Source: Halostella salina
GTDB taxonomy: Archaea; Halobacteriota; Halobacteria; Halobacteriales; Natronoarchaeaceae
Reading direction: 5' to 3'
NCBI RefSeq assembly: GCF_003675855.1
Contig: NZ_RCIH01000006.1
Coordinates: forward strand, 62,001 to 126,000
DNA length: 64,000 bases
Shown here: piece by piece, positions 34,859 to 59,545 of the stretch
Numbering within the stretch: the stretch's first letter is position 1
Layout: every line of letters starts with the position of its first letter
Position numbers and translations under genes: made by a program
The notes under the pieces: generated by a model
Database searches by the model: none
The model's input: only the letters and a program-made list of their open reading frames with translations
Told to the model about the DNA's origin: nothing

Positions 34859-34929
34859 GCGCTGGTAGTGTAGTGGTATCACGTGACCTTGCCATGGTCA
34901 CAACCGGGGTTCAAATCCCCGCCAGCGCA
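34859..34929 (+). tRNA. tRNA-Gly(GCC), copy 1
   Basis: 71 nt. Acceptor stem GCGCTGG pairs with CCAGCGC, the anticodon stem TGACC/GGTCA holds loop TTGCCAT with anticodon GCC, and the T-arm CGGGGTTCAAATCCCCG is intact. Discriminator A, no encoded CCA, no intron. It is identical to the copy at 36553. It is followed by an array containing pieces of its own 3' end. Confidence 0.97.
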
Positions 34930-34999
34930 CTTCTCCGGAACCTACGTCCTCAGCGACGCGTTTCATCGCGTCGCAACGACCGGTTCCGTGAATGCGCGT

Positions 35000-35088
35000 G
35001 GGATTTGAACCAGCGAGTCGCACGCCCGGGAAGCGAACGCAGTGAGCGACCCGGACCGTCTCGCCCAGTTCAAATCCCCGCCAGCGCA
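35000..35088 (+). repeat. Element A: long hairpin ending in the tRNA-Gly 3' end
   Basis: It begins with GGGATTTGAAC, the inverted complement of the T-arm, and ends with GTTCAAATCC followed by CCGCCAGCGCA, the exact tRNA 3' end. Inner pairs GCGAG/CTCGC and CCGGG/CCCGG extend the stem around a loop with AGCGAACGCAGTGAGCGA. The 95 bases from 35000 are identical to those from 36696. Confidence 0.85.
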
Positions 35089-35161
35089 TTTCTGCCGAAC
35101 GTCACTGAGCCAGCGACCGCTGTGCGTGTCGCTGGCGACCAAGTGAGGCGAAATCGCACCG

Positions 35162-35238
35162 GAGATTTGAGCAGGAACGACGCAGCACCGAGCGCAGCGA
35201 GGTGATCGTCTTTCCGAGTTCAAATCCCCGCCAGCGCA
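35162..35238 (+). repeat. Element B: hairpin ending in the tRNA-Gly 3' end
   Basis: Starts GAGATTTGAGC and ends GTTCAAATCC then CCGCCAGCGCA (35218-35238). The loop carries GAGCGCAGCGAG. It is of a second sequence class, related to element D. Confidence 0.8.
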
Positions 35239-35315
35239 CGTCTCCAACACCCAAGTCCCACCGACGCGTTTCATCGCGTTCGGCTGGCGGCAGGAAAATA
35301 CATCAATAGCATAGA

Positions 35316-36552: not shown

Positions 36553-36623
36553 GCGCTGGTAGTGTAGTGGTATCACGTGACCTTGCCATGGTCACAACCG
36601 GGGTTCAAATCCCCGCCAGCGCA
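36553..36623 (+). tRNA. tRNA-Gly(GCC), copy 2
   Basis: 71 nt, identical in every base to the copy at 34859, with anticodon GCC and discriminator A. The upstream region differs, so the two genes have separate promoters. Confidence 0.97.
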
Positions 36624-36695
36624 TTTCTGCTGCGAACGACACAGCGAGCGACCGCTCTGCGTGTCGCTCGCTCAGGGTGAGCAGCGAAATCGTCC

Positions 36696-36784
36696 GGGAT
36701 TTGAACCAGCGAGTCGCACGCCCGGGAAGCGAACGCAGTGAGCGACCCGGACCGTCTCGCCCAGTTCAAATCCCCGCCAGCGCA
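36696..36784 (+). repeat. Element C: long hairpin ending in the tRNA-Gly 3' end
   Basis: Identical to element A, including six bases beyond the tRNA end (95 bp in all, 36696-36790). Eleven-bp terminal stem GGGATTTGAAC/GTTCAAATCCC. Confidence 0.85.
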
Positions 36785-36855
36785 TTTCTGTCGTCATCAC
36801 GACTTAGCAGCGCGTTTCATCGCGCTGCGACTACCGATGACGACGAATGCAGCGA

Positions 36856-36918
36856 GGGATTTGAGCAGACGGGACCGAGCGAAGCGAGTCCCGGCGAGTT
36901 CAAATCCCCGCCAGCGCA
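36856..36918 (+). repeat. Element D: hairpin ending in the tRNA-Gly 3' end
   Basis: Stem GGGATTTGA/TCAAATCCC, inner stem CGGGAC/GTCCCG, loop CGAGCGAAGCGA, then GCCAGCGCA. The same loop type appears in the tRNA-Met tail near 59115. Confidence 0.8.
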
Positions 36919-37079
36919 GTTCTGTCGCGAACCACACGGCCAGCGACCGCCGTGCATGTCGATTACCTCACGTGAGCGAGGAAGTCAAACGGGGATTCGA
37001 GCAGCGAACGAGTAAGCGCCACCGAGCGTTCGCCCGGTGCGGACGAACACCTTTGAGCCGCCGTCCCGTCCAGTCGCCC

Positions 37080-59084: not shown

Positions 59085-59394
59085 TTCCGGGGAGAGGCTC
59101 CGAACCACGGAAAGACTCGCTTCGCTCGCCTTTCCCGCCGCACGCTCGCTGGCGCTCGCGTGCGACCTTCGGGTTCTCCGCCCCTCCCGGGCATTTCACG
59201 GCGTCGCCACTCACACGAGGTTCGTGGCAGGTGAAAATGCCCGGGGAGGGCGTCCGAACTGCCGGGAGAGCTTCGCTCTCCCGTACTCTCGTTCGCTCGT
59301 CCCTCGCTCACGAGAGCCTGCGGGTTCGTCGCCGTTTTCCGACGACGATTCGACACGCGTCGCTCACACGAGGTTCGCGACGGTGGTAGAATCA
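59085..59394 (-). repeat. tRNA-Met tail array
   Basis: A 310-bp gene-free stretch downstream of tRNA-Met, read on the minus strand. It holds a near-copy of the tRNA 3' end at 59238-59260 (TGCCCGGGGAGGGC forward), a worn copy at 59085-59106, and an inverted copy at 59173-59199. Hairpins GTCGC/GCGAC (59359-59381) and GCCAC/GTGGC (59206-59228) share the loop TCACACGAGGTTC. A further hairpin GGGAGAG/CTCTCCC is at 59264-59282. Confidence 0.8.
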
Positions 59395-59545
59395 TGCCCG
59401 GGGAGGGCTCCGAACCCTCGATCTCCGCATGTCCCAGGTTCGAGGCTCGGCGGGCCTCAGGGACACGGAGAGCTTCCAAGGCGGTACCGCACCGAATCTC
59501 AGAACCCTATGAGTGCGGCGCTATGTCCAGCTAAGCCACCCGGGC
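59395..59545 (-). tRNA. Elongator tRNA-Met(CAT) with 77-nt intron
   Basis: Minus strand: acceptor GCCCGGG pairs with CCCGGGC, T-arm GAGGG-TTCGGAG-CCCTC, anticodon stem CCGCA/TGCGG with loop CTCATAA once the intron is removed. Exon 1 ends at 59508 and exon 2 begins at 59430, so the intron is 59431-59507, at the canonical 37/38 site, removed by the archaeal splicing endonuclease. Discriminator A. Confidence 0.93.
59431..59507 (-). other. tRNA-Met intron
   Basis: 77 nt, between A37 and A38. Its ends (GGGTTC on the 5' side, GAACCTGGGAC on the 3' side) can form the bulge-helix-bulge needed for splicing. Haloarchaeal tRNA-Met introns of about this size are known; I see no C/D or H/ACA box that I can defend. 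Confidence 0.85.

Follow-up and report, generated by a model that had tools for sequence, protein, structure and literature searches.

Hairpin-bearing units that end in a copy of the cognate tRNA 3' end are a general feature downstream of tRNA genes in Halobacteria, and not a chance arrangement at one locus. At the level of sequence, the units carry cognate copies and strand-specific hairpins, share modules, are gained and lost whole, and evolve in concert with their tRNA. We infer that a structured pre-tRNA 3' trailer would be their likeliest function. The window, the 64,000-nucleotide stretch of Halostella salina DNA that was analysed, contains such units behind two tRNA-Gly(GCC) genes and a tRNA-Met-like gene. 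No earlier description of such haloarchaeal units was found in the open-access literature.

Arrays in the window

The tRNA-Gly(GCC) genes at 34859-34929 and 36553-36623 are identical, and each is followed by two full units and a partial third. The order within a unit is hairpin A, an inverted T-arm, hairpin B and a copy of the cognate tRNA 3' end (approximately the last 20 nucleotides, positions 53-73), with hairpin A starting a few nucleotides past the discriminator base in these arrays. In Halobacteria at large the copy covers about positions 53 or 58 to 73, after which another unit follows or the array stops. The features are listed below, where R1 is a covariance model trained on 21 hairpins of two other families only.

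34859-34929 (+): tRNA-Gly(GCC) copy 1 (ARAGORN; Rfam RF00005, 65.9 bits)
34936-34988 (+): hairpin A, unit 1; CGGAACC...GGTTCCG, inner GCGACGCG-TTTCAT-CGCGTCGC (sequence, fold)
35000-35010 (+): inverted T-arm GGGATTTGAAC, unit 1 (R1 match 34998-35080, 46 bits)
35011-35067 (+): hairpin B, unit 1; core GC-GA-AC-GCA-GT-GA-GC
35068-35088 (+): tail copy 1 (tRNA positions 53-73, exact)
35089-35154 (+): hairpin A, unit 2, of the GCCAGCGAC...GTCGCTGGC type
35161-35172 (+): inverted T-arm GGAGATTTGAGC, unit 2 (R1 match 35160-35230, 41.2 bits)
35173-35217 (+): hairpin B, unit 2; core ACC-GA-GC-GCA-GC-GA-GGT
35218-35238 (+): tail copy 2, exact
35239-35290 (+): third-unit remnant, hairpin A alone, TTTCAT-loop type (direct repeat family D5)
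36553-36623 (+): tRNA-Gly(GCC) copy 2 (ARAGORN; Rfam RF00005)
36624-36691 (+): hairpin A, array 2 unit 1; outer tandem CTGC-GA-AC...GT-GA-GCAG
36696-36706 (+): inverted T-arm GGGATTTGAAC, array 2 unit 1 (R1 match 36694-36776, 43.8 bits)
36707-36763 (+): hairpin B, array 2 unit 1; the surrounding 98-bp block is 99% identical to 35000-35097 (repeat family D3)
36764-36784 (+): tail copy, array 2 unit 1, exact
36789-36848 (+): hairpin A, array 2 unit 2, TTTCAT-loop type
36857-36867 (+): inverted T-arm GGGATTTGAGC, array 2 unit 2 (R1 match 36854-36910, 40.2 bits)
36868-36897 (+): hairpin B, array 2 unit 2
36898-36918 (+): tail copy, array 2 unit 2, exact
36923-37002 (+): truncated third unit, array 2; hairpin A and an orphan inverted T-arm GGGGATTCGAGC (36991-37002), without a tail copy

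The exact 20-mer GTTCAAATCCCCGCCAGCGC starts at 34909 (inside the tRNA), 35068 and 35218 in the first array, and at 36603 (inside the tRNA), 36764 and 36898 in the second. These are its sole copies in the 3.7-Mb genome with up to two mismatches; all six lie on a single strand, and a reversed control gave none. The preliminary description of this DNA had reported the extra copies at 35068 and 35218, as confirmed here, and had placed the array after a complete tRNA, which also holds, with the tRNA end now fixed at 34929. It had further described each copy as the right arm of a hairpin whose left arm is the inverted T-arm. An inverted T-arm does precede every downstream copy (GGGATTTGAAC at 35000 and 36696, GGAGATTTGAGC at 35161, GGGATTTGAGC at 36857), but it comprises only the T-loop and T-stem, so that the description is right for positions 54-64 and wrong for the acceptor half of the copy, which has no inverted counterpart. 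The independent small hairpins noted between copies were found both in the sequence and by folding, the whole stretches folding far beyond dinucleotide shuffles (z = -10.3 and -8.7). The supposedly regular series does consist of repeated units, but the spacing of its elements (134-161 bp) is only roughly regular.

On the minus strand of the window, an intron-containing tRNA-Met-like gene has two decayed units downstream:

59395-59545 (-): tRNA-Met-like gene (CAT) with intron (Rfam RF00005, 43.1 bits; missed by ARAGORN in bacterial mode)
59237-59258 (-): first tail copy, TTCGGACGCCCTCCCCGGGCA
59085-59158 (-): second unit, hairpin B and tail copy TTCGGAGCCTCTCCCCGGAA, decayed (R1 match 59101-59158, 18.6 bits)

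An Rfam scan of the window gave no family other than tRNA above its gathering score, and RtT was not matched. CAGGDLN-type peptide ORFs predicted over the tail copies (34963-35274, minus strand) are spurious, and in haloarchaea such ORFs may be mis-annotated as proteins.

Distribution downstream of tRNA genes

The host genome was surveyed at all 44 of its tRNA loci, 43 of them usable, for cognate tail copies with at most four mismatches and no more than 320 bp downstream. Such a copy was present behind 22 of the 43 tRNAs, exact in 14 cases, and upstream of none; non-cognate tails matched far less. Three genomes of other families carry a cognate copy at 11/45, 22/42 and 18/41 tRNA genes, again with no upstream copies save for a neighbouring tRNA-Asp. 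Units were absent behind Ser-GCT, Leu-CAG, Ala-TGC, Asn, Gln-CTG, Glu-CTC and Thr-GGT in all four genomes surveyed. Model R1 scored the four units of the tRNA-Gly arrays at 46-40 bits on the plus strand, against 27-22 bits at the same places on the minus strand. Its 29 matches in the host genome all lie at tRNA loci or bear displaced tRNA tails: 27 are within about 320 bp behind a tRNA by coordinates, one, 1.65 kb behind tRNA-Tyr, bears the tail of that tRNA, and one has a tail beside an integrase gene.

When 84,980 species genomes were searched with a strict pattern (GGGATTTGAAC, a gap of 30-60, then GTTCAAATCCC), 107 stretches were obtained. Among the matches listed, 79 of 80 stretches come from haloarchaea or from a deep relative; of 81 matches, 78 are located no more than 450 bp behind a tRNA, in most cases together with an exact cognate copy. 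The deep relative is 'Euryarchaeota archaeon Ods02', with two loci among the matches listed, a strain named in a paper on the class Ca. Ordosarchaeia (PMC10873845). A looser degenerate pattern matched 68/81 genomes of the order compared with 6/312 in the rest of the phylum, a split counted by hand from the result table, and the reversed control pattern matched none. At the sensitivity of the searches, no unit was found in 72,556 plasmids, 50,697 phages or 2.9 million viral contigs, and a plasmid, phage or viral origin was rejected for want of any match in those collections.

The sole non-haloarchaeal match to the strict pattern among those listed is in Methanomassiliicoccales bin396 (CP070739.1, locus L126). 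It consists of GGTTCAAATCCCTCCCCCCGCA and an inverted arm, with no tRNA called in the locus, and may be chance or a real outlier.

Strand asymmetry, stem conservation and turnover

Hairpins A and B contain tandem G·A internal loops, and these are strongly biased in strand: among the commonest types listed, 51 are GA/GA and none TC/TC, whereas the flanks of tRNAs without units have eight of each. The GA core lies on the tRNA-sense strand in 85 of 137 hairpins and on the opposite strand in two. The hairpin A motif occurs in 50/75 unit-bearing flanks as against 10/96 other flanks. RNA folding z-scores are better for the plus strand than for the minus strand or controls, with single modules only modest. 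Modules at least 85% alike at loci with different tails share the same orientation in 38 pairs and are inverted in none. As the shared modules are thus never inverted despite their inverted-repeat ends, and given the GA/GA bias, it is the sense single strand, whether RNA or DNA, that counts.

Other hairpins and copies were seen beside these. A second, shorter kind of unit (L040, L046, L375, L380), whose tail copy begins near positions 58-61, has the hairpin GA core on the opposite strand, for example CCCGCTCGCTCCGCTCGCGGGAATCCCGG. Rarely, the 3' arrays have a mirror image: copies of the tRNA 5' end lie upstream of tRNA-Gly(TCC) and two tRNA-Gln genes (L323, G000:C3:66771-66850; L196; L227), and GCAAACC...GGTTTGC-like hairpins come after these copies. 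The host genome also has a separate 3'-UTR-like repeat family (for example L305, L308, L313 and L315), whose members occur in either orientation and contain stretches of GCATCCGCGAGCGAAGCGAGCG and of TTTTTGAT/TTTTTGCC. GA/GNA hairpins scattered through the rest of the genome were considered as further units and rejected, since they resemble other 3'-UTR-type repeats in both orientations.

The stem formed by the inverted arm and the copy was recovered by RNAalifold, with two-sided changes at five pairs. At the loop-side pairs that vary one-sidedly (A1 columns 12/76 and 14/75), G·U occurs in 11 cells and A·C never. The two-sided changes carry a caveat, in that what each arm matches is the tRNA, and neither arm compensates for the other. 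At sites where copy and tRNA mismatch, the inverted arm agrees with the tRNA by 44:4; compensation between arm and copy was looked for here and not found. Of the covarying stems that the preliminary description named as support for a family, paired changes are thus seen, with no visible compensation. The inverted arm is cognate at T-stem positions 62-64, to an extent exceeding all 2000 shuffles. A full acceptor minihelix mimic for tRNase Z is unsupported, because the inverted arm stops at position 64. The acceptor half of the copy is conserved like the remainder, yet has no pairing partner inside the unit.

The copies track their own tRNA rather than the orthologous tRNA of another genome (396 versus 16 site comparisons). 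Between the congeners G000 and G002, orthologous tRNAs have units in both genomes in 11 cases, in G000 only in 10, in G002 only in one and in neither in 16. The units are dispensable, since loss is frequent: 11 of the 22 occupied tRNA loci are occupied in only one of the two congeners. At tRNA-Arg(GCG) these genomes differ by precisely one unit, and outgroups G005-G008 carry units there. Also between congeners, the tip of hairpin B has been swapped for another self-complementary tip at Met-CAT, Gly-CCC and Gly-TCC, with the flanks kept. A two-unit block is tandemly duplicated at locus L241, and units 1 and 3 behind Leu-TAA are near-identical. In genome G044 a hairpin-B block of GATTTGAATCAGGGAGGAGCTTTGCTCCGACCGTGG followed by TTCAAATC recurs with small variations behind five tRNAs that have different hairpin A and tails.

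Trailer RNA, DNA cassettes and other explanations

The nearest parallel in anatomy is the tyrT locus of E. coli. In strain K-12 the 178-bp tyrTV repeats each end in 19 nucleotides, AATCCTTCCCCCACCACCA (AATCC...CCA), beginning at A58. Within each repeat lie an inverted arm, GGGGAAGGAT, and two hairpins, one reading CTC-GA-GC-GCCA-GC-GA-GAG and the other c(GCA)g; the annotation lists the first repeat as the sRNA RttR. In the predicted fold the arm and the copy are paired with each other, although the repeat taken whole shows no folding advantage over shuffled sequence (z = -0.9). A test for the T-loop inverted-arm motif at tyrTV was negative, the arm there being displaced toward the T-stem and acceptor, as seen from sequence and fold. 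Both systems thus have tandem units behind a tRNA, cognate 3'-end tails, a tandem-GA hairpin and an inverted arm whose pairing partner is the T-stem portion of the copy. They differ in that tyrT is one operon with one tRNA species, whereas approximately a quarter to a half of tRNA genes are involved across the haloarchaeal class, and in that there is no sequence-family match: Rfam RtT is not hit by the haloarchaeal units, nor does R1 match E. coli. To judge by sequence comparison, the haloarchaeal units resemble the tyrT repeats in anatomy and are not members of the RtT sequence family.

To our knowledge the tyrT repeat has so far been an isolated oddity. If up to half of the tRNA genes across a class share its architecture, the origin, spread and role of that architecture become open to comparative study and to Haloferax genetics. 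This would make tRNA 3' flanks a specialised, fast-evolving niche for structured trailers, with relevance for tRNA maturation, for annotation (the spurious CAGGDLN-type ORFs) and for how integrases see tRNA genes. The preliminary description had proposed a recombination hotspot, a tRNA-trailer RNA or an unrecognised element class; regular occurrence after tRNA genes was to speak for a family, and a single old insertion or the lack of arrays in any other genome against it. Occurrence behind tRNA genes is class-wide, R1 recovers host-genome units despite its training on other families, and neither contrary outcome was found; the proposal is supported, but with tyrT as precedent it is not wholly new. 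Element class and trailer RNA may describe a single thing from two sides.

The chances seem to us about even that the units are hairpins of the pre-tRNA 3' trailer, which recombination at the tail and T-loop homogenises and shuffles. Units would multiply and be lost by unequal recombination between identical tails, and the tails would be homogenised with the tRNA, while hairpin-B modules would pass between tRNA loci in exchanges bounded by the T-loop inverted repeat GATTYGAA...TTCRAATC. As RNA, the unit would be transcribed as the pre-tRNA 3' trailer and fold into hairpins, giving a stable trailer RNA that might influence 3' processing or read-through; the parallel with the tyrT rtT trailer RNA is one of anatomy. 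This explanation is favoured by the position always after a tRNA, the sense-strand G·A loops, the occurrence of G·U without A·C and the plus-strand R1 scores, as well as by the tyrT anatomy with RttR and, indirectly, by trailer fragments in Haloferax volcanii. For the latter, one study cited in PMC3544259 assigned 10 of 11 tRNA-derived fragments to 3' trailers; these are stable small RNAs from the same stretch where the units lie, their correspondence with the units being one of position. The trailer explanation is weakened by the frequent unit loss, by the inverted arm tracking the tRNA, and by the hairpin loops, which are mostly GNA triloops. Such triloops are more typical of stable DNA than of RNA mini-hairpins.

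An alternative that we regard as possible but unlikely is that the units are mobile DNA hairpin cassettes: folding of the tRNA-sense strand would make them a substrate for a recombinase or ssDNA transposase, by which modules are carried between T-loops. Recognition would be attC/integron-like or REP/RAYT-like, with the tail copy as duplicated target or attachment core, although the resemblance of integron attC to the units is in architecture only. Its best argument is the conserved, unpaired acceptor half, which RNA pairing leaves unexplained. It also draws on hairpin modules common to different tRNA genes and even different families, on module borders that fall at the T-loop inverted repeat with the recipient flanks retained, on the GNA loops, and on tails that are cognate whatever the tRNA identity. 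A junction near position 58 recurs in unrelated tRNAs (GGTTCAC|AATCC, GTGAG|AATCC, CGCGGG|AATCC), just where the E. coli copies begin. However, no enzyme was identified, the plasmid, phage and viral collections yielded no unit, every R1 match in the host genome is at a tRNA locus or displaced from one, and cognate T-stem positions in the inverted arm are not expected of a universal cassette. The PATEs/SMRs of Haloquadratum are likewise small non-coding haloarchaeal repeats with palindromes, but they are dispersed and target other mobile elements (PMC3119063), whereas the units, unlike these or IS605-derived repeats, occur only at tRNA loci or displaced tRNA tails. CRISPR-like arrays, which combine identical repeats with spacers of unrelated foreign origin, also differ: the intervals here are homologous structured modules without viral or plasmid matches. 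More speculatively still, and in our view doubtful, tRNA T-loops might host hairpin modules that are recognised by their structure and are mobile or self-spreading. These would work on the single strand of tRNA sense and copy themselves between tRNA genes regardless of sequence, and bacteria (tyrT) and archaea would have them in one and the same form.

It is improbable that the units are transcription terminators or insulators, with the tail copy, a T-rich stretch and hairpins halting RNA polymerase past the tRNA. A short T-rich stretch (TTTCT, TTTTC, CTTCT) does follow most tRNAs and copies, and in four genomes tRNAs situated in the rRNA operon or running into ribosomal operons have no units, but approximately half of tRNA genes have no units, and neither the cognate 20-nucleotide tail nor the inverted T-arm is explained. 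A functionless by-product, arising in polyploid cells as the surroundings of tRNA tails undergo tandem duplication and gene conversion while mutation bias preserves the palindromes, would fit the high turnover, decayed copies and concerted tails; we consider it decidedly improbable given the strict strand asymmetry, the complementary replacement of hairpin tips between congeners and the class-wide persistence.

Archaeal integrases use tRNA 3' ends, and the tail copy spans the usual att core (PMC6563490). A direct repeat of the tRNA 3' end is shared with tRNA-targeted att sites. The units differ from these in lacking integrase or cargo, in having an inverted T-arm and hairpins, and in forming arrays, and real elements displace them. 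At tRNA-Arg(TCG) the unit lies on the far side of attR, cut off from its tRNA by an insertion of approximately 22.7 kb that encodes a Phage_int_SAM protein; a second integrase adjoins another displaced tail unit. Since integrated elements sit between tRNA and unit, the units are not integrase scars; a simple integrase site, already doubted in the preliminary description, was rejected on the grounds that the units are non-coding, multiple and beyond the attR of true elements. Casposons are known to insert at or near tRNA genes with a target duplication, of 14 bp for MetMaz-C1 (PMC10359463), but units of 100-176 bp have no room for Cas1/PolB, and it is T-loop repeats that set the limits of their module sharing. 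That the units are scars left where a provirus, plasmid or casposon entered a tRNA 3' end, with the repeats as att sites or target duplications, is highly improbable for gene-free units that have the same anatomy at half of tRNAs and no viral or plasmid relatives in the collections searched. The integrated elements with tyrosine integrases are at G000:C5:32432-55270, at tRNA-Arg(TCG), and at C1:577800-579200, beside the displaced tail unit.
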